From Rhizobiales bacterium UBA3584 (GTDB lineage Bacteria; Pseudomonadota; Alphaproteobacteria; Rhizobiales; Devosiaceae), in the NCBI GenBank assembly GCA_002375765.1, contig DFMV01000054.1, positions 1 through 28,951 on the forward strand: DNA of 28,951 bases, in the 5' to 3' direction. The notes below the pieces were generated by a model that worked only from the letters and a program-made list of their open reading frames with translations, was not told the DNA's origin and ran no database searches. The translations under genes were made by a program, and so were the position numbers. Below are positions 1-19,092 of this stretch, one piece after another; position 1 is the stretch's first letter, and the number at the start of each line of letters is the position of its first letter.

Positions 1-1509
1 ACTTCTCAGCGGAAATCAACAGCTCCTCCTCATGCCGGGTCGATGCTCGAGTCGCTTCGTGGACTCGGCTACGCGCCTCCCACTGCACTTGCCGATCTGG
101 TCGACAATTCAATCGCCGCAAATGCGCGCGACGTCGCCGTTCATCTCGAGTGGGCCGGTCCAGAGAGTTGGGTAAGAATCGTCGATGACGGCGACGGCAT
201 GGACGACGCGGCTCTGGAGGCCGGCATGCGCCTTGGCGCTCGCGATCCGAGGGCTGAACGCGCCGCCACTGACCTTGGGCGCTTCGGGCTCGGCTTGAAG
301 ACGGCCAGCTTCTCTCAGGCTCGTCGCCTGACCGTCGCCAGTCGGAAGAAAGGTGGAGCGGTCGTCTGCTTGCGCTGGGACCTCGATCTTATCGGTCAGG
401 AACCCGGGGCCGAATGGCCGCTCTTCGAGGGGCCGGCGCCGGGATCAGAGCATCTGCTTGAGCCGCTGGCCCAGATGGCCCACGGCACCGTCGTACTCTG
501 GGAGAAACTGGACCGTATCGTGACCGATGGCTTCGCGGCCACCGACATGATCGAGCTCGCGGATCGCGTGGAAGCGCATCTTGCGATGACCTTCCACCGA
601 CTTCTCGATGGCCAACTGCCGATGCTGCGCCTGGCTCTCAATGGAAGAGGATTGAAGCCTTGGGATCCGTACCTCATCGGTCATCCCGGCAAGGCGCTCG
701 AAAGCCCCGAGTATCGGATCCTCCACACCACCGGTGTGACTGTGCAATGCCACGTCCTTCCGCATCGCGATATGCTCAAGCCTGCCGAACAGGAAGTCGC
801 GGCGGGGCCCGGAGGATGGACACAGCAAGAGGGCTTCTACGTCTACCGCAACAGGCGTCTCCTTCTTGCCGGGGGGTGGCTTGGCCTCGGCGATGGCGGT
901 AGGCCATGGCCGCGCGATGAAGCCCACAGGCTCGCCCGTATCAGGCTCGACATACCGAACAGCGCGGATGCCGATTGGAAGATCAATGTCCTGAAATCGA
1001 CGGCTAGCCCCCCGGTGCGCCTGCGATCCCAGTTTCACCGTCTTGCAACAGAAACACGCGACACGGCGCGGCGGGTCTTCGCACACCGGGGACACGTCAC
1101 CCCCGTCTCAGGCGCGCGCTCGAACGCGGTCGCCGAAGCCTGGCAAGTGCGGCGGTCGGCACAAGGGACGTCTTACCGGATCGCTCGTGACCATGATCTG
1201 GTCGCCTCGATCCTCGATCGCGCCGGTCCACTCAAGCCCGATATCCTCGCTCTTCTGAGGCTGATCGAGGAGACAGTTCCGGTGCAGCGCATCTGGCTGG
1301 ATACAGCGGAAGACAAGGAGACGCCGAGAACTGGTTTCGCCGGAGCGGCAGACAACGAAGTCATGGAGACCCTGTCCTCGATTTTTGAAGCGCTGGTGAA
1401 GTTCCGCGGGCTCAGCCCGACCGAAGCGCGCGAGCGGCTTGGTCGTACGCCCCCATTCGACCGGCACCTCGATCTGGTTGCAGCCCTTGAAGCGAAAGAC
1501 AAGCAATGA
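1..1509 (+). CDS. GHKL (paraMORC/MutL-like) ATPase of a restriction-type defence operon, 5'-partial
   Basis: The first ATG in the window is at 43, but the frame is open to base 1 and the residues before it read naturally, so the true start probably lies upstream. Numbering from that ATG, the N box is LADLVDNSIAAN (16-27), the G1 box DDGDGM (48-53) and the G2 box GRFGLGLKTA (79-88), the three ATP-binding motifs of the gyrase/Hsp90/kinase/MutL fold. The rest has no domain I recognise. Known for the family: standalone GHKL proteins related to MORC and MutL occur next to Z1 helicases and nucleases in restriction-type operons, where they are thought to remodel DNA or protein complexes in an ATP-dependent way. 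The stop overlaps the Z1 gene start as ATGA, so the two are translationally coupled. Fold and context are well supported; the role is inferred. Confidence 0.86.
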   Translation, partial: TSQRKSTAPPHAGSMLESLRGLGYAPPTALADLVDNSIAANARDVAVHLEWAGPESWVRIVDDGDGMDDAALEAGMRLGARDPRAERAATDLGRFGLGLKTASFSQARRLTVASRKKGGAVVCLRWDLDLIGQEPGAEWPLFEGPAPGSEHLLEPLAQMAHGTVVLWEKLDRIVTDGFAATDMIELADRVEAHLAMTFHRLLDGQLPMLRLALNGRGLKPWDPYLIGHPGKALESPEYRILHTTGVTVQCHVLPHRDMLKPAEQEVAAGPGGWTQQEGFYVYRNRRLLLAGGWLGLGDGGRPWPRDEAHRLARIRLDIPNSADADWKINVLKSTASPPVRLRSQFHRLATETRDTARRVFAHRGHVTPVSGARSNAVAEAWQVRRSAQGTSYRIARDHDLVASILDRAGPLKPDILALLRLIEETVPVQRIWLDTAEDKETPRTGFAGAADNEVMETLSSIFEALVKFRGLSPTEARERLGRTPPFDRHLDLVAALEAKDKQ

Positions 1510-4373
1510 CGATTTCAAATCAGAAGGCCTTCGATTCAATCCTTTCCATGGCTCAGAACATGCTCCGCCTTGCCGCGGAACGCGCTCAGACCCCTGTCAC
1601 GCCGGAAATGATCGAGAAGGAGCTGACGAAGCTATCGATCATGATGGAGGACGATTTCGCCCTTGTTGATCGGGACGCGCTCGTTGACGAACTGATCCGC
1701 CGATCAAGCCGAACCGTGGGCCAGAACGCCACCCTGTCGAGCGGTGAGGACCATGTCGCCTGGCTTGATGCAGAAAGAAAGAAGGGCTGGACCTATTGGC
1801 AGCGCTACTCGGAATACATGGAAGCGCGCATCCCGTGGACGGCCCTCGACGCCCTCGACGTCGCCACTGACGAAGTCCTTTCACAGATCGAGGACCCGAC
1901 CCGAGAAGGCGCCTGGGATCGTCGCGGACTGGTTGTGGGCCACGTTCAGTCAGGGAAGACTGGTAATTATACCGGACTGATCTGCAAGGCCGCGGACGCA
2001 GGTTACAAGATCATCATCGTGCTCGCCGGACTGCACAACAACCTGAGAGCACAGACCCAGATCCGCCTGGACGAGGGGTTTCTCGGTTTTGCCACCATCG
2101 CGGATGCTGACGAGCTCCCAGCAGTGGGGGTCGGACTGATCGACAAAGACATGTCGGTCCGTCCTAATGCTGCAACGAATCGGAGCGACAAGGGCGACTT
2201 CAACACGGCCGTTGCCGCGAAGATGAACATCAGCCCGGAACAGCGACCGTGGTTGTTCGTCGTCAAGAAGAACAAGACTGTGCTGGAGCGCCTGCTGCAC
2301 TGGATCCGCAACCGTGTGGCCAATCACGTCGACCCCGAAACCGGTCGCAAGCTCGTCACAAACCTGCCTCTCCTAGTGATCGACGACGAGTCCGACCATG
2401 GATCGGTCGACACCGGTGAAGATGTCGTGGACGAGTTTGGCAACCCCGATCTCGAACATGAGCCCAAGACCATCAACAGGTTGATCCGGTCGATGCTCCA
2501 CCATTTCTCGCGGAAGGCCTATGTCGGTTACACGGCGACGCCCTTTGCGAACATCTTCATTCATGACCGCGGGGAGACACAGGAACACGGACCGGACCTC
2601 TTCCCGGCAGCCTTCATCACAAGCCTTGCGGCACCATCGAACTATGTCGGGCCGGGTCGCGTCTTCGGATCGGCTTCCAGCACGCCCGAAGACCTGCCCC
2701 TAGTGCGTCCGTTGTCGGACGACGAGTTTCAGCCGTGGATGCCGCCGCGACACAAGAACGGCTTCCGGCCGCGATGGCAGGGAGAGGATCGTGTGCCGGA
2801 CTCGCTCGCAGAAGCGATCCGTTCCTTCGTCTATGCCTGTGCGGTGCGGAAGCTGCGCGGACAGGGCAGCAAACATTCCTCGATGCTCATCCACGTTACC
2901 CGCTTCACCTTGGTACAGAACGCTGTCGTCAACCAGGTCGCAGAGTACGTGCGAGATCTGAAGGGCCGCTACACCCGCGGCATCGAGCTTGCAGACCTCG
3001 AGGCGTCCATGCGCAAGGAATATGAAAAGACCTTCCTGCCAGGCATGAAGGGAATCCGCTCTGCCCTCGTCGAAGGAGAAACGCTGGAGGACTTCTCGTG
3101 GGCGGACATTCGTGCCGTCCTCCCCGACGTCCTGTCCGACATTCGCGTGCGCGAAATCAACGGGACGGCGAAGGACGCACTCGACTATGCCGAGAATGAT
3201 GGCACAGGTCTCAAGGTGATTGCCATCGGCGGCGACAAGCTGGCGCGCGGTCTGACGCTCGAAGGTCTCTGCACGAGCTACTTCCTTCGAACCGCACGCA
3301 TGTACGACACACTCATGCAGATGGGGCGCTGGTTCGGCTACCGCGACGGCTACCTCGATGTCTGCCGCCTCTACACGTCGCAGGAAATGGTGGAGTGGTT
3401 CGGCCATATCGCCGATGCCGCCGAAGAGTTGCGTCAGGAGTTCGACAACATGGTCGCGGCCGGCGCCACGCCCAAACAGTTCGGCCTGCGCGTGAAATCG
3501 CACTCCGTTCTGACCGTGACCTCGCGGGCCAAGATGAGGAACGCTCGCGCTATGCAGCTGACCTATTCGGGCGATCTTCTGCAGACCATCGTGTTTCCCA
3601 ACCGCAAGGACGACGTCACGGCGAACTTCAACGCTATGGATCGGTTTATCGGTGCGCTTGGCCCATCGAAGGACCTGAACCATCAGCACTTCGTGCCGGA
3701 TGGTCAAAAGTGGAACGGTCACCTGTGGCGCAACGTGCCAGCCCTGAGCGTAATCTCGTTCCTCCGGGATTACAGGACCCATCCCGCCAGCTTCCGGATC
3801 ATGAGTCCACTGATCGCGGACTTCATCGAGGAGATGAACAAGGATCGTGAGTTGACGAACTGGACGGTCGCAGTGATCGGGAAGGACAGCGGCCCGGACG
3901 ACAAGCACCGCACGGTAGGCGGTTGTTCGGTCAACATGCTACAGCGCAAGCGCACGACCGAACATCCGGATCGATACTCGATCAAGACCCTGATCTCGCC
4001 TCGCGATCAGGCCATCGATCTGACCGAGGCAGAATGGAAGGCAGCGCTCGATCTCAGCCAGAAGACCTGGCGCAACGACACGGATCGAAACGAAGGCAAG
4101 GAGCCGCCGTCCGAACCGCGAGGTCCACAGATCCGTCATGTACTCGGAGAAGGCGTCGCCGAAGCGGGCATTCCAGCTCGCCGAGAACGCGGCTTGCTCA
4201 TGCTCTATCTGCTCGATCCCGAAGGTGCGGGTGTCGATGAACTGAAGAATGCCGATCCGGTCGTCGCCTGGGCTATCAGTTTTCCGTCAAGCACTTCCGA
4301 GAGAAGGGTCTCCAACTCGAGGTACATCGCCAACAGCGTACTTTGGGGGGGCCTCAATGACTGGGTGGACTGA
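1506..4373 (+). CDS. Z1 domain-containing superfamily-II helicase-like ATPase
   Basis: A 955-aa protein of the Z1 family, usual in length. Motifs in order: Walker A GHVQSGKT (145-152); a motif Ia-like AGLHNNLRAQT (174-184); a DEAD-like Walker B VIDDESDH (291-298); motif III-like YVGYTATPFANIF (339-351); and C-terminal helicase motifs LARGLTLEG (about 579) and QMGRWFGYRDGY (about 605-616), the last corresponding to motif VI with its arginine. Z1 proteins are SF2-type ATPases known mainly from gene neighbourhoods with GHKL ATPases, PD-(D/E)XK nucleases and AIPR proteins, which is exactly this setting. It probably translocates on or opens target DNA for the neighbouring nuclease; that is inference. 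It overlaps the upstream gene by 4 nt and the downstream gene by 17 nt. Confidence 0.93.
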   Translation: MTISNQKAFDSILSMAQNMLRLAAERAQTPVTPEMIEKELTKLSIMMEDDFALVDRDALVDELIRRSSRTVGQNATLSSGEDHVAWLDAERKKGWTYWQRYSEYMEARIPWTALDALDVATDEVLSQIEDPTREGAWDRRGLVVGHVQSGKTGNYTGLICKAADAGYKIIIVLAGLHNNLRAQTQIRLDEGFLGFATIADADELPAVGVGLIDKDMSVRPNAATNRSDKGDFNTAVAAKMNISPEQRPWLFVVKKNKTVLERLLHWIRNRVANHVDPETGRKLVTNLPLLVIDDESDHGSVDTGEDVVDEFGNPDLEHEPKTINRLIRSMLHHFSRKAYVGYTATPFANIFIHDRGETQEHGPDLFPAAFITSLAAPSNYVGPGRVFGSASSTPEDLPLVRPLSDDEFQPWMPPRHKNGFRPRWQGEDRVPDSLAEAIRSFVYACAVRKLRGQGSKHSSMLIHVTRFTLVQNAVVNQVAEYVRDLKGRYTRGIELADLEASMRKEYEKTFLPGMKGIRSALVEGETLEDFSWADIRAVLPDVLSDIRVREINGTAKDALDYAENDGTGLKVIAIGGDKLARGLTLEGLCTSYFLRTARMYDTLMQMGRWFGYRDGYLDVCRLYTSQEMVEWFGHIADAAEELRQEFDNMVAAGATPKQFGLRVKSHSVLTVTSRAKMRNARAMQLTYSGDLLQTIVFPNRKDDVTANFNAMDRFIGALGPSKDLNHQHFVPDGQKWNGHLWRNVPALSVISFLRDYRTHPASFRIMSPLIADFIEEMNKDRELTNWTVAVIGKDSGPDDKHRTVGGCSVNMLQRKRTTEHPDRYSIKTLISPRDQAIDLTEAEWKAALDLSQKTWRNDTDRNEGKEPPSEPRGPQIRHVLGEGVAEAGIPARRERGLLMLYLLDPEGAGVDELKNADPVVAWAISFPSSTSERRVSNSRYIANSVLWGGLNDWVD

Positions 4374-5361
4374 AGATGGGATTGCACGCGCCTGGCGAGC
4401 GCTCGCACGACAGGAAGCGGCGGAAGACTGGCGATTTGTGCATCTCACCGATATGGGCGCCGTCTCGGTCGAGGCGGGGTGTCACTTCCCCCTCGGACGG
4501 GAGGCGTTGATCGTCTCCTTTCCAGGATCGTGGCCGGTGAATCCGGCAAGGCTTCCTGAAGGCAAGGGCTTCGACGTCTCCTGCATCGCGGGTCAGTCCG
4601 AATTCACAGGCAAGACGGCGATTGCTCTCGTCAGGCGGCCGGAGGGCTCCCCCGACATCTTCGCCATCATGGTCGTGGATGTGTTGAGAACTCTGGATAC
4701 GGCAGCCAACAGCGCGGGCCGCGATGTTATGGAGACCTTCCTCGAACGGGTCAGGGAATGGCAGGCTTTCATGGCCCGAACGCACCGTCCTCTTTCGTTC
4801 GATGCGCAGATCGGCCTGCTCGGCGAACTCTGGATGCTCAGGCTGCTCACGGACACCTCCCTCGGAGCCGGTGCTCTCGACTGCTGGCAGGGACCGTTGC
4901 GGGCTGCACAGGACTTCCACGTTCGGGGTGGCGCGATAGAGGTGAAGAGCACGGTCCGGACCGGCAGCTTCCTTGCGCGGATCAACAGCATCGAGCAGCT
5001 GGATGGCGACAGGGCTCCCATCTTCCTTTGCGCCTTCCGCTTCGAGGAAAATACGGACGGGATCTCGCTTGTCGACCTCGTGTCTGAACTCCGCGAGAGG
5101 TTTGGACTGGCCGGAGTTCAGCGCGGCTTCGAGGCATTGCTCATGGTGATGGGATACCTCGAAGAGCATGCACCGCTCTACAGCCGAACGCTGACATTGA
5201 AGGATGCAAGGACATTCCGCTCGGAAGGTAACATGCCGCGCCTCATGCGTGCCTCTCTGCCAGCCGCCATCCGTTCAGCCGCCTATGTACTCGACCTCGA
5301 TGCCTTGGAAGTCCCTTCAATTGGGATTCCGGAGCTGATCAACGAATTTGGACTGGAATGA
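4357..5361 (+). CDS. PD-(D/E)XK motif nuclease-like protein (DUF4420)
   Basis: The likely start is the ATG at 4357, which overlaps the Z1 gene by 17 nt and gives 334 aa, the usual size for the family. The open frame runs further upstream, but only inside Z1 coding sequence. The core shows a conserved LLGELW helix before the catalytic region, then D186 in QDFH and E195-x-K197 in IEVKST, the PD-(D/E)XK pattern of restriction-endonuclease-fold nucleases. Members of this family accompany Z1 and AIPR proteins. This is the best candidate for DNA cleavage in the operon. The active-site residues are visible; substrate and specificity are not. Confidence 0.88.
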   Translation: MTGWTEDGIARAWRALARQEAAEDWRFVHLTDMGAVSVEAGCHFPLGREALIVSFPGSWPVNPARLPEGKGFDVSCIAGQSEFTGKTAIALVRRPEGSPDIFAIMVVDVLRTLDTAANSAGRDVMETFLERVREWQAFMARTHRPLSFDAQIGLLGELWMLRLLTDTSLGAGALDCWQGPLRAAQDFHVRGGAIEVKSTVRTGSFLARINSIEQLDGDRAPIFLCAFRFEENTDGISLVDLVSELRERFGLAGVQRGFEALLMVMGYLEEHAPLYSRTLTLKDARTFRSEGNMPRLMRASLPAAIRSAAYVLDLDALEVPSIGIPELINEFGLE

Positions 5362-5362
5362 T

Positions 5363-7168
5363 ATGAGCCTCGAAGAATTTCACCGCAACTTTCGTTCCGA
5401 CCTGCAGACCATCATCGCCGAGCGCGTGGAGGCTGGCGAAGGCCCATTTCCTTCGGATGAGCTCGTTTTTGCGGAAATGGTCATGGAGCACGTCGCGGAA
5501 ACCGGGATCTGCGAGGCACCTACCGTTTGCCACTGGAGCGGCAAGGTCGGCAACGCAAGGCTCCGCATTACGGGCTATGCGCTCAGCTCCGATGAAACGG
5601 CTCTCGACCTCTTCGTGACCCACTATTTCGGGACCGAAGAACTGAGCGATCTCAGGGATCCGGATGCCACCGCAACTGCAAGCGAAGGCGTTCGCTTTCT
5701 ATTTCGAGCGGCAAGCGGAAACCTCGATGCTAGGATCGATCCGACGCATCCGGTCAGGGATCTGGTCGCCACGATTCGGTCTCGCTGGGGCGACATCGAC
5801 CGACTTCGTGTGTTCGTGATCACCGATGGCAAGACCAAGACCAAGCGGTTCTCGAACAAGGAGGCTCACCAGAAGATGGTGGCTGTCGAGGCCATGGATA
5901 TGGAGAGGCTGTTCCGCCACACCGAGGGCAAGCCGCGAGACGAACTGGCCGTGAGTTTCGTTCAGTCGATCGGTCGGGCACTGCCCTGCGTTCACGTCCC
6001 AGACCCTGATGCTGACTACGAGTACGCCCTCACTGCCATTCCGGGGCAGCTCATCCGGGATCTCTATCTGCGCTACGGGACGACCCTGCTCGAAGCCAAT
6101 ATCCGCACCTTTCTGGGGAACAAGCGCGCGGTCAACAAGGGCATCGTCGAAACGCTGCGAAAGGAACCTGAGCACTTCCTCGCCTTCAACAATGGCCTCG
6201 TACTTGTCTGCGACGAAGCGGCCTTCGAGCGGACAGAGGACGGAAATCTGGGCCTGTCCTTCTTGAAGGGTCTGCAGATCGTGAACGGCGGCCAGACGAC
6301 CTCTACCATCTACTTCTCATCCCGGGACGATCGCACGATCGATCTCAGCCATGTCATGGTGCCGGCCAAGATTATCATCCTCAAAGGATCGCAAGACGAA
6401 GCGCGCGAGAGACTGATAAGCAACGTGTCTCGCTATGCGAACAGTCAGAACGCGGTGAAGATGTCCGACCTGTCGGCGAACCGCCCGTTCCATCGAGAGC
6501 TTGAAAAACTCGCGAACGACACTTGGTGCCCCGACGGTGCAACGCGATGGTTCTACGAGCGCGCAGCTGGCGCCTACAACGTCATGCTTCTGAGAGAAGG
6601 CACCACGCCGGCCAAGAGGCGAAACTTGAAGGAGATGATCCCGCCAAAGCGCAAGCTGACCAAGAACGACATCGCAAAGTACCATGAAGCGTGGCGCGGC
6701 AAGCCTAACCAGGTCGCTATGGCTGGTGAGAAGAACTTCGCGGCCTTCATGGCTGCTCTCGATGACGATCCGACCATTGTGCCCACCCCGCTCGATGCTC
6801 GCTGGTATCGGGCGATGATAGCCAAGGTCATTCTGTTCAAGGCAATCGAGAGCATGATCAAGACGAAGGAAGCAAAGGAGGTGTTCCGCCAGGGATGGGT
6901 CAACATTGCCACTTACGTCGTATCGGTGGTCTCCGACCGACTTGGTGATCGGCTCGACCTCGAGCAGATATGGATGCGGCAAGGGATTTCAGCTGGCCTG
7001 CGGGACCTGCTCTGGGACTGGGCCGTCGTCGTGAACGCCGAGTTCAACAGGATCGCCCCGGGCCAGCAGATTTCGGAGGTGGCGAAGCGCGCGGACACGT
7101 GGGCGAAGGTGAGAGCCGCTGAATTCCCTGTTCCGCGGGGTTCAATCCAAGAGGTACGGCAGTCATGA
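5363..7168 (+). CDS. AIPR (abortive infection phage resistance) family protein
   Basis: I chose the ATG at 5363, one base after the nuclease stop; a TTG at 5348 would add five residues. The 601-aa product carries the AIPR core: NIRTFLGNKRAVNKG (around 245-260), FLAFNNGLVLV (around 270-280) and LQIVNGGQTTSTIY (around 303-316). The family was named for a link with phage abortive infection and is repeatedly found beside Z1 helicases, GHKL ATPases and PD-(D/E)XK nucleases. Its biochemical activity is not something I can state from sequence. Tight spacing makes it the fourth gene of one operon, and it is followed by the convergent methylase after 62 bp with no obvious terminator between them. Confidence 0.92.
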   Translation: MSLEEFHRNFRSDLQTIIAERVEAGEGPFPSDELVFAEMVMEHVAETGICEAPTVCHWSGKVGNARLRITGYALSSDETALDLFVTHYFGTEELSDLRDPDATATASEGVRFLFRAASGNLDARIDPTHPVRDLVATIRSRWGDIDRLRVFVITDGKTKTKRFSNKEAHQKMVAVEAMDMERLFRHTEGKPRDELAVSFVQSIGRALPCVHVPDPDADYEYALTAIPGQLIRDLYLRYGTTLLEANIRTFLGNKRAVNKGIVETLRKEPEHFLAFNNGLVLVCDEAAFERTEDGNLGLSFLKGLQIVNGGQTTSTIYFSSRDDRTIDLSHVMVPAKIIILKGSQDEARERLISNVSRYANSQNAVKMSDLSANRPFHRELEKLANDTWCPDGATRWFYERAAGAYNVMLLREGTTPAKRRNLKEMIPPKRKLTKNDIAKYHEAWRGKPNQVAMAGEKNFAAFMAALDDDPTIVPTPLDARWYRAMIAKVILFKAIESMIKTKEAKEVFRQGWVNIATYVVSVVSDRLGDRLDLEQIWMRQGISAGLRDLLWDWAVVVNAEFNRIAPGQQISEVAKRADTWAKVRAAEFPVPRGSIQEVRQS

Positions 7169-7230
7169 TGCCTGACACCGGTGTTGTCGCAAATTCAGGC
7201 TTCGAACGCCTCATGACTGATAGGTGGTGT

Positions 7231-8766
7231 TCACCGTTTCAGCGTAGACAGCACGAGCGCGGCAATCTGCCTTGCAAGAAACGGCGGCACGGCATTTCCA
7301 ACTTGGACATATTGCTGCGTTCGGTTGCCGAGAAACAGGTAATCGTCGGGAAAGGTCTGCAGACGAGCAGCTTCGCGAACGGTCAGGCTCCGGCACTGGA
7401 TCGGATCGGGGTGAATAAAGTAGTGGCCATCCTTCGAGATGTGGCTCGTGACCGTGGTCGATGCCTCGTCCGCCAGCTGAACCCGGAAGCGGTCATTGAA
7501 CACACCGCTGTGCCAGTTTCGGTGATCGGGGCTGAGCACCAGCGGAAAATCGGCGGCCTTCGGGCTGTAGCCACGGACGGTCCCGAACACGGCAGCAAAC
7601 AGGTAGCGGCCCAGATCCGACGCCATGTGCCCGCGCGTCTCGTGCTGGGCGATCGCGCGAAGTTCCGGTCGCTCGATCCACTGCAACAACTCATCGTTCG
7701 AAGTGCCGTAGCCGTCTGGCAGCCGTGACGCAACCCGCACGATAGGCGGGTTTTCCTTCACTCGCTCCGAAACGCTCAGGAACGCTTCACGTAGCGCCCG
7801 GTTGTCCTTCCCCTTGGAAATGCCAGCCAGCATGTTCGCGGCGTTGCGGACTTCTCCTCGCCAAGCGGCCGCGTTGTCGAGCCCGCGGCTGATGCCGCTT
7901 CGCAAGGCGGGCATCATTTCGATGACATCGCCGACGGTCCGTGCCATCCCCGATACGGCGATCTCCGTATCGGCGGCGCGTCCTGCGAGGTCCGAACGGA
8001 TGCCGACGATGATCACCCTGTGGCGACGCTGCGGGGCTCCGAACGCCTCGGCGCGCACGATGAAATCCGAAGGCTGTGCCGCCTCCTGCAGGCTGGCCTT
8101 GCCATCCTCGACGCGGACGGCACGAAGTTCGTAGTGATGGGCGTGACCCGAGCCGAGCGAGGACAGATCCTCCATCAACATCTCGAAGACAAGTCGGCTC
8201 TCGACGGTGGACGAAAGCATGCCCTTCACGTTTTCCATCACGAAGGCGGCTGGGCGAAGCTTGTCGAGAACCCGGATGTACTCGCGAAAGAGGTAGTGCC
8301 GCGCATCCTCCTCCGGGACGTAGCCGACCTTGCCTCTGGAGCGGACGCGTCCCACTAGGGAATAGGCCTGACAGGGCGGACCGCCGATCAGGATCGTGTC
8401 GTCGTACTTTGCTTTCAGCGTCGCGATGGCGCCATCTATGGCGGTCGCGGCAGCCCCGGTGCCAAGCTCAAGCGCGCGGGCTTCGTCGATGGCATGCTGC
8501 CACGCTTCGGCATCGACGGCTGACCAGTCAGGTTCGGATGCCAGCCCGGCATGGAAATCGATGAACTCTTTCGGCAAGCCGCCATGACGTGCACGGTACT
8601 CGCGCAGAAAGGCGCGCAGCGTCAGGGTCCGATGGGCTGACGCCTCCTTCTCGACCGATATGCCGATCCTGAACGGCGCATGGCCGTCCTCGACAAGGGA
8701 AGCGAACCCCTCGCCAAGTCCGCCCGGACCGGCAAACAGATCGACAATGCCGAAAGTGGAAGGCAC
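7231..8766 (-). CDS. DNA (cytosine-5-)-methyltransferase
   Basis: A complete 511-aa C5-cytosine methylase that uses S-adenosylmethionine. Motif I is FAGPGGLGEG (11-20), motif IV GGPPCQAYS with catalytic Cys132, motif VI ENV (178-180), motif VIII QRRHR (246-250), motif IX RSLTVREAARLQTF near 460-473 and motif X YVQVGNAVPP near 487. The spacing from motif I to PCQ is about 50 aa longer than in compact methylases such as M.HhaI, so there is an N-terminal insertion. The start is GTG at 8766, with AGGAG 6 nt upstream. An ATG two bases earlier is out of frame. The gene is divergent from vsr and convergent with the Z1/AIPR operon, and probably protects host DNA. The recognition site cannot be read from the sequence. 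Confidence 0.95.
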   Translation of the reverse strand: MPSTFGIVDLFAGPGGLGEGFASLVEDGHAPFRIGISVEKEASAHRTLTLRAFLREYRARHGGLPKEFIDFHAGLASEPDWSAVDAEAWQHAIDEARALELGTGAAATAIDGAIATLKAKYDDTILIGGPPCQAYSLVGRVRSRGKVGYVPEEDARHYLFREYIRVLDKLRPAAFVMENVKGMLSSTVESRLVFEMLMEDLSSLGSGHAHHYELRAVRVEDGKASLQEAAQPSDFIVRAEAFGAPQRRHRVIIVGIRSDLAGRAADTEIAVSGMARTVGDVIEMMPALRSGISRGLDNAAAWRGEVRNAANMLAGISKGKDNRALREAFLSVSERVKENPPIVRVASRLPDGYGTSNDELLQWIERPELRAIAQHETRGHMASDLGRYLFAAVFGTVRGYSPKAADFPLVLSPDHRNWHSGVFNDRFRVQLADEASTTVTSHISKDGHYFIHPDPIQCRSLTVREAARLQTFPDDYLFLGNRTQQYVQVGNAVPPFLARQIAALVLSTLKR

Positions 8767-8775
8767 ATCAGGCTC

Positions 8776-8804
8776 CTGACGAATTTCATTCAGCGGTGTA
8801 TACC
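8776..8804 (+). promoter_or_regulatory. Putative sigma70-type promoter for vsr in the dcm/vsr divergent region
   Basis: A -35-like CTGACG (8776-8781) and a -10-like TATACC (8799-8804) are separated by 17 bp and lie about 30 bp before the vsr GTG. The -10 sits on the palindrome GTATAC, so the same bases read TATACA on the other strand and could serve the methylase gene, although I find no good minus-strand -35. CCAGG occurs at 8803-8807, touching the -10, and again at 8822-8826. Confidence 0.45.
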
Positions 8805-8832
8805 AGGTTCAGGAAAGAAAACCAGGGCGCAT

Positions 8833-9297
8833 GTGACCGATATCGTGGACCAGCAGACCCGTTCCCGGATGATGTCGGAGATACGGGGAAAGAACACGAA
8901 GCCCGAATTGTCTCTCAGGCGGGCATTGCATGCGCGCGGCTTTCGCTTCCGGCTTCATTCCAGCAAGGTTCACGGGCGGCCGGACCTCGTACTTCCGAAA
9001 CACGGCGCCGTGGTCTTCGTACACGGCTGCTTCTGGCATCGCCATGAGGGATGCCGCTACACCACAACGCCATCTACGCGTCCGGAGTTCTGGCAGGCGA
9101 AGTTCGAAGCGAACGTTGCGAGAGACCTCGCAGTTAGACGGGCACTTCTGGAAGACGGATGGCGCGTGGCAACGGTGTGGGAATGTGCCCTGCGGAAGCC
9201 GGAACAGGTGGAAACCTCGTCAGAAGACCTGTCGATCTGGCTACGATCAGAAGACCTTCAGATCGAGATCGGCGACGACATCCCACGTCGATCCTGA
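8833..9297 (+). CDS. vsr: Very short patch repair (Vsr) mismatch endonuclease
   Basis: Vsr nicks 5' of the T in T:G mismatches created by deamination of 5-methylcytosine. The typical start TDIVDQ-TRSRMMS points to GTG at 8833, with AGGG 5 nt upstream; the longer frame from 8680 would run into the dcm gene. The 154-aa product keeps E25, D51 in GRPD, and H64 and H69 in HGCFWH at the same numbering as the E. coli enzyme. Zinc-ligand candidates are C66, H71, C74 and C118. All catalytic residues look intact. It is divergent from the cytosine methylase with 66 bp between the start codons, the expected functional partner. The last 25 residues or so are an acidic tail outside the core. Confidence 0.95.
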   Translation: MTDIVDQQTRSRMMSEIRGKNTKPELSLRRALHARGFRFRLHSSKVHGRPDLVLPKHGAVVFVHGCFWHRHEGCRYTTTPSTRPEFWQAKFEANVARDLAVRRALLEDGWRVATVWECALRKPEQVETSSEDLSIWLRSEDLQIEIGDDIPRRS

Positions 9298-9375
9298 GCG
9301 GAAGGGCCGTTTTCCTTTCGGGCCATGAACCCAGAACCCTAATGATCGAGCCACCTTGCTGACCGCGCTGCGCTA

Positions 9376-9602
9376 TTAAAGAACCCGCGCCTGATCGCGC
9401 ATCACAGCGTAGTCGCTCAGCATTTCCGCGATCACCCATCCCACAGGCAGCTGGGCCAGTTCCCCGGCCGCCCGTGCCTGGAACAGCCGGCTGGTCGCGC
9501 AGCGCCTTCAGCTTGTCGAGCGCGCGACGTGTATTGAGACGTCTTGCCGTCGCGTTCGAAGCCGGGCTGACCCCACGTCTTACGTCTCCGAGTTTTGCCC
9601 AT
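9376..9602 (-). pseudogene. Remnant of a small (about 75 aa) gene with two frameshifts
   Basis: An ATG at 9602 overlaps the end of the upstream gene, as is usual in this run. It opens MGKTRRRKTWGQPGFERDGK. The protein-like sequence then continues in another frame as RRLNTRRALDKLKALRDQ, and in the third frame as RLFQARAAGELAQL and GWVIAEMLSDYAVMRDQ, ending at TAA 9376-9378. Each switch is a +1 shift. None of the three frames alone gives a sensible full-length protein. I do not recognise the product. Decay is the simplest reading, and sequencing error is the alternative. Confidence 0.42.
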
Positions 9603-10323
9603 CGTCGTCATCCTTCATTCCTCCGTGCAGATCGAGCTTCTCATCCGGATGCTCATCTGCCAAATCGCGCAGCTTCTTCAGCGCCGATTCCGGCGGCTCG
9701 AGACTTGATTTGAGACCGCGCTTCTTCATGTCGTCGACGTGCCTTTCCTCGACCTCCGGCGTCTGCTCGACGGCTTCGCGCTCGGGATCGCGATCAGGCG
9801 GCATCTTGGCTTCCGAGATCAGCCGCATCTCCTCGTCGGTGAGATCGCCGACGCGACGGACTAACCGGCCACCGGATTTCTGGAGTTCGGCGAATAGGCT
9901 CTTGCGCTCAGCATACTCTTCATCACTTTCGCCCGGGTTACGCTCGAGCGTGTATTCGTACCCGCAGTGCTCCTCCGGCATCTCGTCTCCCGGCTGCGGC
10001 GGCTCCGTGCCGAACTCTCGGAGCCCTTCCAGCACCATCTGCTGCGCGAGCACATTCCTCGTCGCCGCTGCCAGCCTTTCATACTCGCCGACCTTGGCTT
10101 CCAGGATTTCGCGCACCGTCCTTTCGTCGCCGCCGGTTTGATCGATGATGACCAGCTCGGGCACGCCGTCGCGCCGGATCAGCGCGCCCTGGGAGTCGCA
10201 TTCCCAGCCGGAATGCGCGATGTCGAACATGCTGATGATCTCGAGCTTTTCGCCTGGGAATCGCTCGGCAAGTTCCGAGAGCGCGTATTCGAGTTTGAGT
10301 TCTTCTTCAGTCATTGATGTCAT
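9580..10323 (-). CDS. Hypothetical acidic protein, 247 aa
   Basis: Starts at ATG 10323 (MTSMTEEE), overlapping the upstream gene by 17 nt; the second ATG at 10314 is an equally plausible start. The frame stays open much further upstream, but only as a shadow of the neighbouring gene. The product is acidic and mostly helical in appearance, with many Glu/Asp/Arg/Lys blocks and an Asp-rich C-terminus (DDDDGQNSET). The N-terminal third includes a segment LVIIDQTGGDERTVREILEA that could form a small folded domain. No domain is recognised. It is the penultimate gene of the long minus-strand run and is probably co-transcribed with the Cys-rich protein before it. Confidence 0.7.
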   Translation of the reverse strand: MTSMTEEELKLEYALSELAERFPGEKLEIISMFDIAHSGWECDSQGALIRRDGVPELVIIDQTGGDERTVREILEAKVGEYERLAAATRNVLAQQMVLEGLREFGTEPPQPGDEMPEEHCGYEYTLERNPGESDEEYAERKSLFAELQKSGGRLVRRVGDLTDEEMRLISEAKMPPDRDPEREAVEQTPEVEERHVDDMKKRGLKSSLEPPESALKKLRDLADEHPDEKLDLHGGMKDDDDGQNSET

Positions 10324-10804
10324 CGCCCATCCCGTTATGTCTAAATCCGGAGAAAGGCATAACGACCTCCTCAATTGACGTCTCCTGCCACCTCGACGCC
10401 GGATCGTAGAGCCGCTTGAGGTACGCATGCCCGCCATCGACCGCGAGTTTGCCGCACCGGCACCGCACGAAATCATGGCGATGCGTGCTCTCGATCTCGT
10501 CGCCGCATGCCAAGCACCGCGCGGAATTCCGAATAATCCGCTGCCAGGGGTCACCCGGGCTGTGATCGCGGCACACGATTCGATTCCCGCGCAAGCGCCC
10601 CGGCTTCCCGCATTCACGACATGAGATCGCGGCCTTCGCGGCGGCCTCGGCGACAAGCCGCTGGTCGCGCATGTCGTCGAGCAGCGCACGGATGATGAGA
10701 TCGCCGCTCCAGTCGTCTTCGTAAGCGTCCACGATTTCAACCTGCTGCTCGAGATCCTCGATGATTTGCCGCCATCCCGGTGGCACCCGATGCGCGACGC
10801 TCAT
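10307..10804 (-). CDS. Cys-rich putative zinc-ribbon protein (DUF7695-like C-terminus)
   Basis: A 165-aa protein starting at ATG 10804, with GAGG 5 nt upstream. It opens with PPGWRQIIEDLEQQV, then has a first Cys cluster CRECGKPGRLRG...CRDH (about 60-80) and a second, CLACGD...HRHDFVRCRCGKLAVDGGHAYLKR (about 98-132). The second half resembles the DUF7695 pattern from memory (CxxC, HDF, CxCG, VDGG). Both clusters are plausible zinc sites. The first cluster recurs in the protein encoded at 11767-12684. Function is unknown; binding nucleic acid or protein is a guess. A set of phased direct repeats lies just upstream. Confidence 0.78.
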   Translation of the reverse strand: MSVAHRVPPGWRQIIEDLEQQVEIVDAYEDDWSGDLIIRALLDDMRDQRLVAEAAAKAAISCRECGKPGRLRGNRIVCRDHSPGDPWQRIIRNSARCLACGDEIESTHRHDFVRCRCGKLAVDGGHAYLKRLYDPASRWQETSIEEVVMPFSGFRHNGMGDDIND

Positions 10805-10812
10805 GGCCGCCT

Positions 10813-10872
10813 CGGTGGTAAAACCGTTACGGCGGTGGTAAATACGTTTTCCGGGGCCACGCAGGTGGAAAA
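10813..10872. repeat. Three phased direct repeats (CGGTGGTAAA type) between two genes
   Basis: CGGTGGTAAA occurs exactly at 10813-10822 and 10833-10842, and a variant AGGTGGAAAA (8 of 10 bases) at 10863-10872. The start-to-start distances are 20 and 30 bp, close to whole helical turns, so all copies face the same side of the DNA. They fill the 72-bp gap between the metallophosphoesterase stop and the start at 10804. This looks like an operator for a protein binding tandem sites, but no binding protein is identified. Confidence 0.45.
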
Positions 10873-10876
10873 TCCA

Positions 10877-11770
10877 TTATTCATCGTCGTCCTCCCCATA
10901 ATCACCGACGCCACGCAGCTTCTCTTCGAGCTCAGCGATCTCTTCCGGCGTCCATTTCTTGCGTTCCGAGGGAACCGTCGCGACCTCGGGAATCTCGATG
11001 ACAAAGCGCTCATCGAATCCAAAACCGTCGTGATCGCTGTACCCCCTCGGATTGCAGACGACGCGGGTGGTATCGACGCGATAGTCGTGTCGCTGATGTA
11101 CGTGCCCATGCACCCAAAGCGCGGGCTGATAGGCCTCGATCATGCCGAGCAAATCGCTCGCGAAAGAGCCATCGCTCGGCGTCGGACGCATCGGGTCTGC
11201 GAGAGAAAATTGCGTCGGCGCGTGGTGCGTGACGACGACCGTGGGCCCATCGAAAGGCTTCGCCAGTCTTCGCCCGATCGTTGCCCGATGATCACGGTGC
11301 CATGCCAAGGTGTCACGCGGATGCAGCCGCCGAAGCCCCATGTCGATGGATCGATAGTCGGGCATCGCATGCTTCGCCCATACCATTGCCTGGGCGATAT
11401 CGAAATCATCATTTCCCGCGACCGCGAAATCGGTCCACAACGTTGCCCCGACGATGCGCACGCCGCCGATCTCAAGGGTCTCACCTCGGGCGAGCACGGT
11501 GACGCCCATTGCCGCGCAATCCCGGATAGCTGCATCGAGCTCCGCGTGCGGATTCACGCCGCCGTAAAAATCATGATTGCCTGGGACCCAGACGATGGGC
11601 GGCAAAGGATTGCGCGGAATATTCCACTGGAGCCATTCAATACCGCCCTGGAAACCATCGGCAATATCACCCGCGATCACCAGCACGTCCGCTTCCGGAG
11701 GCGGGTATGGCAGTTCGAAAAACCCAGCGTCACCGTCGACATGGAGGTCTGACATGATCCACAATTTCAT
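10877..11770 (-). CDS. Metallophosphoesterase family protein
   Basis: A 297-aa calcineurin-like phosphoesterase with all the metal-site motifs: SDLHVDGD (7-14, D-x-H), GDIADG (about 34-39), GNHDFYGG (about 64-71), VTHHAP (about 181) and GHVHQRHD (about 224). The family uses a two-metal centre to hydrolyse phosphomono- or diesters; the substrate here is unknown. ATG 11770 overlaps the upstream stop as ATGA. The C-terminal 40 residues form a charged tail with EEIAELEEKLRGV, likely a short helix, and a DDDE end. Such enzymes are common cargo on phages and plasmids of this bacterial group. Confidence 0.9.
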   Translation of the reverse strand: MKLWIMSDLHVDGDAGFFELPYPPPEADVLVIAGDIADGFQGGIEWLQWNIPRNPLPPIVWVPGNHDFYGGVNPHAELDAAIRDCAAMGVTVLARGETLEIGGVRIVGATLWTDFAVAGNDDFDIAQAMVWAKHAMPDYRSIDMGLRRLHPRDTLAWHRDHRATIGRRLAKPFDGPTVVVTHHAPTQFSLADPMRPTPSDGSFASDLLGMIEAYQPALWVHGHVHQRHDYRVDTTRVVCNPRGYSDHDGFGFDERFVIEIPEVATVPSERKKWTPEEIAELEEKLRGVGDYGEDDDE

Positions 11771-12684
11771 TCGAAGCCTCCTTCCTCGGCATGGTGATCG
11801 CAAACCGTGCGCACCCATCCGCCAGCCTTTCGCAGCCGGCCAGGCGCGCCGCAGTCTTCGCAGAGGCACTCCGAGAGCCATTCGGCAGCGCCGATGATTT
11901 CGTCGGAGAGTTGATCGCTGGGCGCCGGACCGCAGTAGAACCTCAGGCCCCCAAACTTCTCTTTGAGTTGCGACGAGATCCACGATCCATCGTAGTGCTC
12001 ATTGAGCCACATCGACGTTGCCACCATGAGATCGACCCAACCCGAGGCGAACTCGGGCTCGTTATCGATGAAGACGAACTCGTTTCGGATCGGACGCCAC
12101 CATTCCTTCGGCAGCGGGAACGGGCGATTGCGCCTCGTGTCCCAGCGCCTCGACCGGACGTTGATGACGCGCCGCACCAGTTCGACGATGTGCTGCCGCC
12201 TGGGTGCCCAGTGCAGCTTGCCCTTGTCTGTCGTGGGTTCATCGGGCACGCCGGAGATCCACAGCCGCTGCATTCCCTCTTCGGTCCAACGTCCAGGCGC
12301 CACGACGAGGTGTGTGCAGGCGGAATCATTGCGGAACGCGCGGCCCAAGATCGCCCGCGCCTCGCCCGTCAACTTGAGGACCGACAACGCTTCAGGATTG
12401 GACTTTTCATTGTAACGGTGCCGGCCCAGGCGATAGAACCTCGACATCGTCCGTGCGAACTTGAGCTGCGGATCGAGATAGACGAGCGAACTCGTATAGA
12501 TCGGCCTGGCATCGGGAAGCCTGGGGTGACCGAACCCGGTGCCAACAAGGTGCGGCACGGGCTCATGGCAAATATCCCAGCCGACAAGCTCTGGCGCGGA
12601 CTCAAGCTGCTCCTCAGTCGGCTCTTGACCCGCATGGATCGGGGCGAGGATTTGTCTTCTTTCATCAGTATCAGGCAGCATCAT
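11767..12684 (-). CDS. Hypothetical protein with a C-terminal Cys-rich module
   Basis: Starts at one of two adjacent ATGs (12684 or 12681) behind a strong GGAGGTGA, giving about 305 aa. The N-terminal two thirds contain LHWAPRRQHIVELVRR and FPLPKEWWRPIRNEFVFID, which I cannot assign. The C-terminal third has LKEKFGGLRFYC followed by CLCEDCGAPGRLR...VCDHH, a Cys-rich segment seen in many uncharacterised proteins of proteobacterial mobile elements. Its CGxPGRLR stretch is shared with the protein encoded at 10307-10804. It is coupled by ATGA to the metallophosphoesterase gene. Function is unknown. Confidence 0.8.
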   Translation of the reverse strand: MMLPDTDERRQILAPIHAGQEPTEEQLESAPELVGWDICHEPVPHLVGTGFGHPRLPDARPIYTSSLVYLDPQLKFARTMSRFYRLGRHRYNEKSNPEALSVLKLTGEARAILGRAFRNDSACTHLVVAPGRWTEEGMQRLWISGVPDEPTTDKGKLHWAPRRQHIVELVRRVINVRSRRWDTRRNRPFPLPKEWWRPIRNEFVFIDNEPEFASGWVDLMVATSMWLNEHYDGSWISSQLKEKFGGLRFYCGPAPSDQLSDEIIGAAEWLSECLCEDCGAPGRLRKAGGWVRTVCDHHAEEGGFE

Positions 12685-12685
12685 T

Positions 12686-12892
12686 TCACCTCCGATTCCA
12701 CGCTTCCCACGCGATCGACATGACCCTGGCTTCGTAGTCGGTGCCCTTGGCGGCCTCGAGCAACTCACCAACCGCGGCGACACCCCGGTCGAGGACGGCT
12801 TGCGCTGCGGCCCGCAATTCGGGCGACCTCGCCTCTCGCCGCAGGCGGTGGCAAAGCAGGTAGACATCGTGCATTTGCTCTTGCTCGGTCAT
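12686..12892 (-). CDS. Small hypothetical protein, 68 aa
   Basis: I prefer ATG 12892 because GGAGG lies 8 nt upstream; a GTG at 12898 would make a GTGA overlap with the AAA gene but sits only 2 nt from the ribosome site. The product is helical and Ala/Arg/Glu-rich, with LCHRLRREARSPELRAAA and a C-terminal ARVMSIAWEAWNRR. No domain is recognised. Its stop is 1 nt from the next start, whose ribosome site lies within the end of this gene. Confidence 0.68.
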   Translation of the reverse strand: MTEQEQMHDVYLLCHRLRREARSPELRAAAQAVLDRGVAAVGELLEAAKGTDYEARVMSIAWEAWNRR

Positions 12893-12894
12893 GC

Positions 12895-14562
12895 TCACGC
12901 CCTCCCGATGAAGGCGTCACGGGCGCCCAGCGTCGCCTCGATCGCGGCGCGCAGCTTCCGCAGCGACCCGCCCGGCCAGGCCTTCCGGATCACGTCGAGT
13001 TCGTCCGGCGCGAGCGGCGGGTACCAGCGCTCATCGACGCCCCGATCGCGGGCGATGTCGCGGATGATCTGGGGTGCCAGGTCGCCGATATGCTGCCATC
13101 CCGGATCCGGCATCTTGATGATGCGCATCCGATCTCGGATCGGATCGGGGATGCCGTCGAGACTGTTGGCGGTGGCGAAGTGGGAGATCCAGCTCAGATC
13201 GACCTCGACCTCGATCGACAGGTCGCGGACCGCCCGCGCCTGAGAAGGCTCAAGCAGCGGAAGCAATGCTTCGATCGCGTTGCCATTCCGGCGATCCGGC
13301 GAGGCCTTCTCGATCTCGTCCCAGATGACGAGCCCGTTGGCATAGCCGCTGCGCTGGATCAGCTGCAGGGGGACGCTTGGCCTGGCGCTGTGCCATTGCG
13401 CCGACGTGCCCATCGCCGAGGAATCGCTGGCGCCGGCCATGCCATAGACCTCGACCGGAAGGCTGAGTTGCATCGCGATCGCCCTGGCCAGGGCAGTCTT
13501 CCCAGACCCCGGCTCGCCGACCAGGCATGTAGGTCGAAATCGGACGTGCTCGCGTGCAGCGAGATCGCCGAGAATGGTCTCGATGACGTCGCGGGCATGC
13601 GGCCAACGAGCGGCAAGCGTGCGGAAGTGGAGATCGACGGGTCCGCGGTCGATCAGCGGCAGGCGCTCGCCGGCAACCTTTTCGAATTCCTTCCGGACTT
13701 CCTTCCGGAACCCGGAGACAGGCGCGGTGAACTTGGGCACGACGACAACGCCCGCGTCCCGGTCGCGCCGATCGACTTCGGATCGGTCCTCGTTGACCTC
13801 GGCCATAGCGTCGGCCATGTCCGAGTCGGCGATCAGCTTCGCGAAAAGACCCTTTTCTATCGCCTCGGCAGCATCAGGATTACTCGCGAGCCACAGGTCA
13901 GCCTGCCGATGCGCATCGATATCGCGGCCCAGGTTCAGCAGCTGCTGAATACCGTAGCGTTGGGCGGCATCGATGTCGCTTTCGCGATGTCCGAAACGAG
14001 TATGCAGCAGTCCGAGCGTTGTCGCACGGCGAAGTGCCTCGCCAAATCTCTTATCAAACCGCCCAGTCTGGCGCTCATGATACAGGCGCTTGGCAGCTTC
14101 TTCGGCAGCGTCGAGATCGTCGGAGCACGCGATGTAAAGGTCGCATCTCGCGACGTCGCTGTACCGCCCCCGTTGATCGAAAATCTCACGCGCAAGCATG
14201 AGCAGCGGTGCGCTGCCGTCGACGATGCACTGATCGATGATGGCGGCTTCGCTGTCTGCGAGCTCCAGCTTCCGGCGAATAGATGTGAAAAAATGGTGAC
14301 GGTCGGTGACCATCGAATCCTTGCACCACACGGCGTGGATCAGGATTTCTTCGAGCGCGGGGAGGTCCCCGGCCTGGATTTCATCGCGACGCTTCTGGAG
14401 GTCGCGGAAAGATTGAATGTCGTTTTCTTCGAGCTCGGCGAGGCGCCGACCCGTGGGGTTATTGTCCTTCACTGTAAGAGGTTTCAGAGCTCGATGGGCG
14501 TCCGCGACATTGCGGTGTCGCCCCCGAGTGCGCCGCCGTCGACCGGAGTCACGACGTCCCAT
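12895..14562 (-). CDS. Lon-type AAA+ ATPase with a helical N-terminal region
   Basis: The ATG at 14562 gives 555 aa; a TTG at 14613 would add 17 residues and neither has a clear ribosome site. Walker A is GEPGSGKTAL (about 347-356) and Walker B LVIWDEIEKA (about 410-419). The following HFATANSLDGIPDPIRDRMR closely follows the sensor-1 and arginine region of the Lon ATPase core. The first 330 residues are helical and unrelated to the Lon N domain, and no Ser-Lys protease domain follows, so this is a Lon-like ATPase without protease. A remodelling or loading role on a partner is likely but unproven. A TATAAC box at 14654-14659 (minus) may give an extra promoter, with a poor -35. Confidence 0.88.
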   Translation of the reverse strand: MGRRDSGRRRRTRGRHRNVADAHRALKPLTVKDNNPTGRRLAELEENDIQSFRDLQKRRDEIQAGDLPALEEILIHAVWCKDSMVTDRHHFFTSIRRKLELADSEAAIIDQCIVDGSAPLLMLAREIFDQRGRYSDVARCDLYIACSDDLDAAEEAAKRLYHERQTGRFDKRFGEALRRATTLGLLHTRFGHRESDIDAAQRYGIQQLLNLGRDIDAHRQADLWLASNPDAAEAIEKGLFAKLIADSDMADAMAEVNEDRSEVDRRDRDAGVVVVPKFTAPVSGFRKEVRKEFEKVAGERLPLIDRGPVDLHFRTLAARWPHARDVIETILGDLAAREHVRFRPTCLVGEPGSGKTALARAIAMQLSLPVEVYGMAGASDSSAMGTSAQWHSARPSVPLQLIQRSGYANGLVIWDEIEKASPDRRNGNAIEALLPLLEPSQARAVRDLSIEVEVDLSWISHFATANSLDGIPDPIRDRMRIIKMPDPGWQHIGDLAPQIIRDIARDRGVDERWYPPLAPDELDVIRKAWPGGSLRKLRAAIEATLGARDAFIGRA

Positions 14563-14676
14563 GGCCGGCGCATAAAGCACAAAGAAATGCCGCCGTCCAG
14601 ATGGCGGCGGCAAAAGGTTAACGGGTGGTCAAGGGGGTGGGATGGATCCGATCGTTATAGACAAATTGCAGAATGG

Positions 14677-15060
14677 CTATAACACCGGCGGCAGATCGCG
14701 AATAAAGACCTCAACCCCGTCAACGAATGAGACTTCTTCTCTGCTCCCGTCGGGCATCTCGCGGATGAGATGATTAGATCCGTAAGGAATCAAAAAATCA
14801 GCATAGAAAGATGGCTTACCGTCGGCGTGGGCTACCGCAGTGTTGATACCGCGCCGGTGGCCAATTTCAATAAACTCTTGAGCCATGGACACATTTGCGT
14901 CGGCGATAGCCTTGATCTCTGCCAACGCAGCCTTCATCTCGATAATGAGGTTTTGCAACTCGAGATTTTGCTGCCCAAGATTGTCCGGAAGCGCGAAAAT
15001 CATGCTGTTCAAGCGCTTAGCTTCGGCATTGAGCTTATATATGCGGTCGAAGGCACTCAT
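14677..15060 (-). CDS. Hypothetical coiled-coil protein, 127 aa
   Basis: ATG 15060 follows GGAGATG with suitable spacing. The first 80 residues are a long helix, likely a coiled coil (KLNAEAKRLN, NLELQNLIIEMKAALAEIKA). The C-terminus ends in IREMPDGSREEVSF and VEVFIRDLPPVL, which looks like a small beta unit. Its base composition is visibly more AT-rich than its neighbours. No domain is recognised. The start overlaps the end of a broken micro-gene as ATGA, and 114 bp separate its stop from the AAA gene start. Confidence 0.72.
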   Translation of the reverse strand: MSAFDRIYKLNAEAKRLNSMIFALPDNLGQQNLELQNLIIEMKAALAEIKAIADANVSMAQEFIEIGHRRGINTAVAHADGKPSFYADFLIPYGSNHLIREMPDGSREEVSFVDGVEVFIRDLPPVL

Positions 15061-15144
15061 AGTTTCATCTCCATTTCAAGGCTGCCGTCTGGCGTCTCGC
15101 GGACGATGCCGCGGCAGAGAGCGGGGTTCGATGAGGGTCTTCAT
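15057..15144 (-). pseudogene. Frameshifted micro-gene (28 aa if intact)
   Basis: ATG 15144 overlaps the preceding stop as ATGA and opens MKTLIEP. After a CCCC run the protein-like reading continues one frame over as ALCRGIVRETPDGSLEMEMKL and ends in a TGA that overlaps the next ATG, again as ATGA. The span is 88 nt, one more than a whole number of codons, so removing one C restores a perfect link in the operon chain. RETPDGS resembles REMPDGS in the next protein. The fit at both ends supports a real gene with a one-base insertion. Confidence 0.45.
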
Positions 15145-15545
15145 GCGGCCTCGGATTGCAGCTCCCGCGCCCGCTTCGCAACATGCTTCTCACGACGGTT
15201 GAGGGCATTTTCGCGGGCGAAACTCTCGTCGATCTCACGCTGCAGTTCGCGTTCTTGAGTCAAGATCAGCTCAATGCGATCAGCAAGATCAGACTGCTGC
15301 GTGAGTAGATCCTCGACTTCGTCGTCTCGGGCCGGCGCCGAGTTGGCGATATCGAGCAGCCGCTTGCCAACCAGCCCCAGCTGACCCGTCAAGTCGCGGC
15401 GAAGGGTAGAAAGGTGGTCGCGACGCTCGAAAAGGTCATCCTGCTCGAAGCGGAGGGCCCGGTGCTGCCGATCGATTTCGACCTGCTCGGCCTGCAACTG
15501 GGCGAACGTCATGTTCTTGATGGCGGTTTTCATGGCTGTTTTCAT
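15141..15545 (-). CDS. Hypothetical coiled-coil protein, 134 aa
   Basis: ATG 15545 overlaps the upstream stop as ATGA, and GGAG lies about 10 nt before it. Nearly the whole protein is predicted helix with heptad-like spacing (LQAEQVEIDRQHRALRFEQD, LTQERELQREIDESFAREN), so it should form a long coiled coil. The first codons are a near-perfect 12-nt tandem repeat giving MKTAMKTA, leaving a second possible start four codons in. No domain is recognised; a structural or adaptor role is possible. Confidence 0.72.
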   Translation of the reverse strand: MKTAMKTAIKNMTFAQLQAEQVEIDRQHRALRFEQDDLFERRDHLSTLRRDLTGQLGLVGKRLLDIANSAPARDDEVEDLLTQQSDLADRIELILTQERELQREIDESFARENALNRREKHVAKRARELQSEAA

Positions 15546-15943
15546 GGCTTCATCTCCGGTTCGTTTTCCTGCTCGGCCTCGGCATCAAGCCGTAGCCATG
15601 TGATCTTCGTATCGCCCTCGGTCGACCCGATGATCCGCGGATCGTCGGATCGCATCGCGATAAAATGGGGTACCTCGGCAGCAACGGCGGATCCTTGCGC
15701 TACAAGTGTCATGCGCCCGACATCCGAAATCTGGTTCGCCGCTTCGACGAGAGCATTCGCCCTGCGCTCACAGAATTCAGCGAAGCGGGTTTCGAGCTCG
15801 GACGGCATCTCCCGCTCCCCGCGTGCATAGCGCGTGAACGTCGGTGCCGGGATGTCGAGATCGGCTGCAAGCGAACGCTGCCAGCGGTCGCCATAGAGAA
15901 GGCGTCCGACGGTCTCGAGGCGGCGGTGGATGGGCATCACCAA
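15542..15943 (-). CDS. Helix-turn-helix (XRE-like) protein
   Basis: A 133-aa protein. The start is ambiguous: TTG 15943 has AGGAG at an ideal 7 nt, while the in-frame GTG (15940) and ATG (15937) lie 10 and 13 nt away. Residues 15-45 (LLYGDRWQRSLAADLDIPAP, TFTRYARGERE) match the helix-turn-helix pattern of the Cro/CI superfamily, with QRSLAADL as the first helix and PTFTRYARG as recognition helix. The C-terminal half is unassigned. It is the only evident DNA-binding regulator in the run and so the natural candidate for the dyad near 16641, though this link is inference. Confidence 0.75.
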   Translation of the reverse strand: MVMPIHRRLETVGRLLYGDRWQRSLAADLDIPAPTFTRYARGEREMPSELETRFAEFCERRANALVEAANQISDVGRMTLVAQGSAVAAEVPHFIAMRSDDPRIIGSTEGDTKITWLRLDAEAEQENEPEMKP

Positions 15944-15999
15944 TTCATTTCTCCTTGCCTAGCCCTTGCCGGAACCGCTCAAAGGGCGGCTCGGGAAAG

Positions 16000-16021
16000 G
16001 GCCGGGGCCGAAGCCCCAGCC
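16000..16021 (-). terminator. UUCG-capped hairpin between two operon genes (attenuator or terminator-like)
   Basis: On the minus strand, a 9-bp stem (GGCTGGGGC with GCCCCGGCC, one G-U pair) closes a TTCG tetraloop, an exceptionally stable cap. It lies 8 nt after the stop of the 186-aa gene and before the HTH gene. The following bases are not a U run, so it may dampen transcription or protect the upstream message from 3' decay rather than fully terminate. Confidence 0.5.
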
Positions 16022-16028
16022 GATACGC

Positions 16029-16922: not shown

Positions 16923-16945
16923 GAGGTCTCCGGAAGCCGGACAAC

Positions 16946-19015: not shown

Positions 19016-19092
19016 TGGTGGGCCCGGAGGGACTCGAACCCCCAACCAGACCGTTATGAGCGGTCGGCTCTAACCAGTTGAGCTACAGGCCC
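19016..19092 (-). tRNA. tRNA with CAU anticodon (probably tRNA-Ile2, lysidine type; elongator Met possible)
   Basis: A 77-nt cloverleaf with encoded CCA. The acceptor stem is GGGCCTG/CGGGCCC, the D stem GCTC/GAGC, the anticodon stem GACCG/CGGTC around loop CTCATAA, and the T arm carries GTTCGAG. The anticodon is CAT. The 5' half resembles bacterial tRNA-Ile2, in which C34 is modified to lysidine, and it does not look like the initiator. Telling Ile2 from elongator Met needs a covariance model. The 3' end faces the accessory half. Confidence 0.93.

Follow-up and report, generated by a model that had tools for sequence, protein, structure and literature searches.

Gene content and assignment of the locus

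We analyzed a 28,951-nucleotide stretch of DNA (hereafter the window) from Rhizobiales bacterium UBA3584, which forms the start of contig C87 (69,995 bp) in a genome of 3.95 Mb in 87 contigs, and whose first 9,297 bases carry a six-gene locus related to the anti-phage system MZA. Translation, Pfam matches and motif alignment agree that all six proteins keep their key motifs, as the original prediction, made from the letters alone, had claimed. The first gene (22..1509, plus strand) encodes an mzaB-like GHKL (MutL/MORC-like) ATPase, followed on the same strand by the motor gene mzaC (1506..4373), an mzaD-like PD-(D/E)XK nuclease gene of the DUF4420 type (4357..5361; Pfam, 258 bits) and an mzaE-like AIPR gene (5348..7168; Pfam AIPR_N and AIPR). 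These four genes were correctly described as joined by overlaps (B/C, C/D and D/E), the last of which exists only if mzaE starts at TTG 5348, ATG 5363 being a possible start as well.

The best PADLOC matches of the four proteins were MzaB (557 bits), MzaC (1100), MzaD (187) and MzaE (526), and their homologues occur in the MZA order. NCBIfam likewise gives them Mza names, but with scores below the equivalog cut-offs in every case (MzaB, 654 versus 850; MzaC, 1178 versus 1500; MzaD, 281 versus 420; MzaE, 695 versus 1050), and we therefore file the locus as an MZA-type system rather than as a curated equivalog or an unnamed set. Judged by its sequence, the locus is one copy of the known MZA anti-phage type, equipped with its own C5-methylase and Vsr. 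Relatives yielded 80 conserved loci (numbered L here), and because of this conservation chance or artefact was rejected as the source of the gene set.

MZA (mzaABCDE) has been annotated in E. coli (Gao 2020, as cited in the passages compared of Miller 2022, PMC9523054). The order of the MzaA-E homologues is identical in the relatives, and the window proteins B, C, D and E are 52, 53, 36 and 41% identical to those of E. coli M19, with 33% identity over 242 residues for the MzaA encoded on contig C7. The window type differs in adding a C5-methylase, Vsr and, in its near clade, a WYL gene. The putative system type II of Miller 2022, as described in the same passages, is more distant, with ~20% identity to mzaBCDE and MzaA in few cases, as against 36 to 53% and an MzaA in the genome here. 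That the set is not wholly new had been anticipated, and its gene types indeed fit the third operon type of Iyer 2008 (MORC/paraMORC, a distinct SFII helicase, a restriction endonuclease fold and Dcm/Vsr), whose motif DThhQXuRhFG fits DTLMQMGRWFG of MzaC; this comparison is by class description, and the passages compared do not mention a sigma factor. CglI/NgoAVII, an ATP-dependent restriction-modification system, differs in its nuclease, a PLD plus B3 protein, whereas the window has DUF4420, AIPR and GHKL proteins and no Pfam match to such an R-subunit among its six. Similarly, the best PADLOC match of the methylase is DrmMII of DISARM class 2 (268 bits), but the other five proteins match no DISARM model, and DrmA, DrmB and DrmC were without a PADLOC match among the six (for the methylase, among the best 25 of 55 families). 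A literature search of limited depth, with Gao 2020 itself outside its reach, found no mechanistic study of MZA; further sources, each used in part, were PMC2292703, PMC5379612, PMC3506569, PMC12458937, PMC4267653, PMC9122126 and PMC5737866.

GHKL ATPases usually have a catalytic Glu in the N-box. MzaB shows its GHKL motifs with an invariant Asp at this position (78 of 78 rows), a replacement that may slow ATP turnover. In MzaC the motor motifs are invariant, and the fold of residues 664-955 agrees with the assignment; E157, D186, E195 and K197 are invariant in the MzaD alignment, as is NGGQT in that of MzaE. Modeling and fold comparison predict for MzaE a nuclease-fold N domain, a ParB/SspE-like middle domain and a helical C part. 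In four loci (L082, L090, L092 and L098) mzaE is followed by a second protein, whose MzaE-like part lies within a longer open reading frame (ORF) and which in L082 is AIPR by Pfam.

The linked methylase and Vsr

Downstream of mzaE, the C5-cytosine DNA methyltransferase (M; 7231..8766, minus strand) has a Pfam match, carries the catalytic motifs expected of such enzymes and contains a long stretch of variable sequence between motifs VIII and IX. The Vsr mismatch endonuclease (8833..9297, plus strand) matches Pfam Vsr at 100 bits and TIGR00632 at 134 bits, above the curated cut-off of 98, and its D55, H73 and H75, which we take to be catalytic, occur in 100% of filled rows. The two genes lie back to back, as predicted, across a gap of 66 bp (8767..8832) that is likely a shared promoter region; within it, 14 of the 15 rows aligned share the palindrome GTATAC (8798-8803), which reads GTACAC in L041 and is possibly a divergent promoter element used by both genes.

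Most economically, the locus may be read as an ATP-dependent restriction system keyed to the mark of M, which we consider somewhat probable; the parts come from sequence, and the assembly, target and cutting are what we infer. More specifically, the M mark would serve as the key for restriction, MzaC would act as the translocase, MzaD as the cutter, and MzaB and MzaE as clamp or switch subunits, with Vsr repairing the cost of 5-methylcytosine (5mC) and MzaA and the WYL protein exerting control. A C5-methylase was present in the flanks of 45 of the 47 loci with enough flank, and loci with M are spread over Pseudomonadota, Bacteroidota, Myxococcota and Fidelibacterota.

Several observations weigh against this interpretation. 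Neither M nor Vsr lies inside the flanks of L082 and L097, and the M family (E <= 1e-60) was not found in 3 of 10 MzaC-positive genomes of the class (G241, G408 and G442), of which G408 has another C5-methylase and Vsr. In E. coli MZA, neither gene was found by annotation or profiles in any of the four regions opened. No sequence-specific DNA-binding domain was recognized by Pfam in MzaB-E, and with Foldseek alone neither model had a match at E <= 0.001. Finally, M-Vsr occurs in four loci (L163, L165, L167 and L168) in which no Mza protein was found; there the pair adjoins a group of ORFs similar in size, matched by the PADLOC candidate PDC-M33A in L163 and L168 and additionally by DUF6339 in L168.

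The last finding, together with the E. coli regions and the exchange of M described below, is what one would expect if MzaBCDE were a methylation-independent defence that senses phage structure or activity, with M-Vsr as a separate, self-stabilizing neighbor. Self-stabilization has a precedent in Caulobacter, in which losing an unlinked C5-methylase is costly owing to a Vsr-like protein, according to the parts consulted of PMC12907096. The near-constant linkage and its spread over four phyla count against this alternative, which we regard as rather improbable. Overall, the original interpretation of the locus is partly supported. Far less probable still is a Type IV-like attack of MzaBCDE on foreign-modified DNA, 5mC included: VIA-align places MspJI and McrC among the nuclease folds close to MzaE residues 1-189, but as this fold is common the likeness is little evidence, and 45 of the 47 loci with enough flank carry a 5mC methylase.

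The variation of M itself also bears on the restriction reading. Across 53 aligned rows, its catalytic motifs are mostly at or near 100% and the flanking segments are conserved too, with identity falling to a few percent over residues 270-360. The loci L032 and L045 have MzaC proteins 93 to 95% identical to that of the window and a different M target region; likewise, the methylases of L035, L036 and L046 (those of L035 and L046 being C5-methylases by Pfam) align with the window M over ~90 residues only. Among 78 locus pairs with MzaC at least 88% identical, counting gaps as differences, the M target region was less than 30% identical (mean 0.23) in 23, all of them involving L032 or L045, so that the result comes from two loci. 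Mean identities of MzaB, C, D and E were 86, 93, 91 and 87% in these pairs versus 91, 95, 92 and 94% in 48 pairs with like M. The lowest 30-residue windows in swapped pairs were 0.57 (C), 0.70 (D) and 0.53 (E); that of MzaB was 0.00, its source very probably being L031, in which the contig starts inside mzaB. No block of C, D or E drops comparably to the M target region, with MzaE changing most, which also counts against the restriction reading, as such swaps are unexpected if C, D and E alone read the site of M. This leaves three options: the site is not read by the restriction proteins alone, a small number of residues is enough for reading it, or M is the reader.

In Type III systems, Mod guides Res. 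By analogy, M could be the specificity subunit, with MzaBCDE lacking a site-reading module and guided by site-bound M, such that a changed target region would alter modification and restriction together. The swapped pairs and the conserved remainder of M favor this arrangement, but only L032 and L045 supply those pairs, MzaE and MzaB also diverge more in them, MzaE residues from ~451 could form a specificity patch, and the E. coli locus has no M; we hold it to be a doubtful alternative.

Upstream genes, insertion sequence and island

A family directly upstream of mzaB has a match in 69 of 80 loci, always on the same strand and within 300 bp. Sigma-70 regions 2 and 4 are present in all nine such proteins scanned, and ankyrin repeats in eight of them; in the seven compared with NCBIfam, MzaA was the best match, below its cut-off. 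The ankyrin-sigma protein of L026, its MzaA, carries a further domain fused at its end (residues 759-806), which is a GcrA cell-cycle-regulator domain. The genome analyzed here encodes its own MzaA (728 amino acids, C7:48-2234; PADLOC MzaA, 119 bits; 91% identity with the L026 MzaA) and a WYL protein (C7, locus L111, 2218-3078, minus strand) at the very end of contig C7. A WYL-type gene was found in 16 of 80 loci (one scanned). All 10 aligned rows have, ahead of the WYL gene, a conserved element near CCCAGAAAWTGGGCGCGCA, with a few variable letters and within otherwise diverged DNA; it is likely an operator or promoter.

The assembly break falls between mzaA (C7 end) and mzaB (C87 start), and the contig edges match. 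Bases 1..21 of the window (plus strand), also the contig end, are an insertion-sequence end (terminal inverted repeat), an inverted 21-bp copy of which ends C7. Allowing up to 2 mismatches, the genome contains this sequence 15 times, and 11 of these matches sit no more than 90 bases from a contig end. Outside it, L027 is matched by C7 to 8523 and by C87 from 8517, giving a 7-bp target duplication (window 1-28; C7:1-28). Since the copy in this locus is unassembled, its family is taken from an element with near-identical ends (C17:27509-30192, 2684 bp) that encodes IstB_IS21 (Pfam, 272 bits); the insertion is probably of the IS21 family. In L027, where the end of mzaA is at 8497, mzaB has in-frame ATGs at 8502 and 8538. 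The second of these corresponds to ATG 43 of the window, and the first in-frame ATG of relatives precedes the insertion point by a few codons. If the upstream ATG is used, as suggested by the alignment of window MzaB residue 8 with E. coli residue 7, the insertion lies in the first mzaB codons; if the start is 43, it lies just ahead of the gene. Under either start, it separates mzaB-E from mzaA and the upstream genes.

The island carrying the locus is bounded by a tRNA-Met gene (19016..19092, minus strand). Window bases 18968-28951 share 99.77% identity with G119, a genome of the same species, in which no MzaE match was found and bases 1-18967 had no match within the 60 kb compared. MzaC is 93% identical in Pseudomonas sp. 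GM50 and 95% in a Salinicola metagenome-assembled genome, indicating that the system moves between classes. The rest of the island (9580-18926) encodes, all on the minus strand, a metallophosphoesterase (10880-11983), a DUF6634 protein (11770-12867) and an AAA ATPase (12898-14613); scans of further ORFs gave no named match.

E. coli MZA and Dcm

By a distant DNA search, MZA was found in 55 of 5426 E. coli genomes. In 9 of these 55, mzaB is broken at one place (query position about 604), with IS421 at the break in the two opened. As a positive control for the profiles that found no M or Vsr beside E. coli MZA, the chromosomal dcm-vsr pair was detected ~66 kb from mzaA in M19, the sole MZA-positive strain checked for it. 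The MzaC tree places E. coli among M- and Vsr-bearing loci, though at an open fork, and loss of both in the E. coli line is the simpler reading.

That Dcm-Vsr takes the place of M and Vsr in E. coli is only our hypothesis. As dcm is present in nearly every E. coli strain, finding it says little, and among other loci without Vsr a Vsr was found elsewhere in 3 of 7 genomes, which gives such borrowing mixed support. It is therefore a speculative and rather unlikely proposal that MZA is normally methylation-keyed through its own C5-methylase and Vsr, that the E. coli form lost both and uses chromosomal Dcm-Vsr as its self mark, and, linked to this, that M is an interchangeable specificity part. 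E. coli Dcm has long been regarded as an orphan; if the proposal is true, it would gain a restriction partner, and one MzaBCDE engine would serve many target sites. Whether MZA needs Dcm could be asked directly with the E. coli form. Two results turn MZA into a specific, testable model: its motor is tied to CglI, an enzyme studied biochemically, and its close relatives are nearly always accompanied by a C5-methylase and Vsr.
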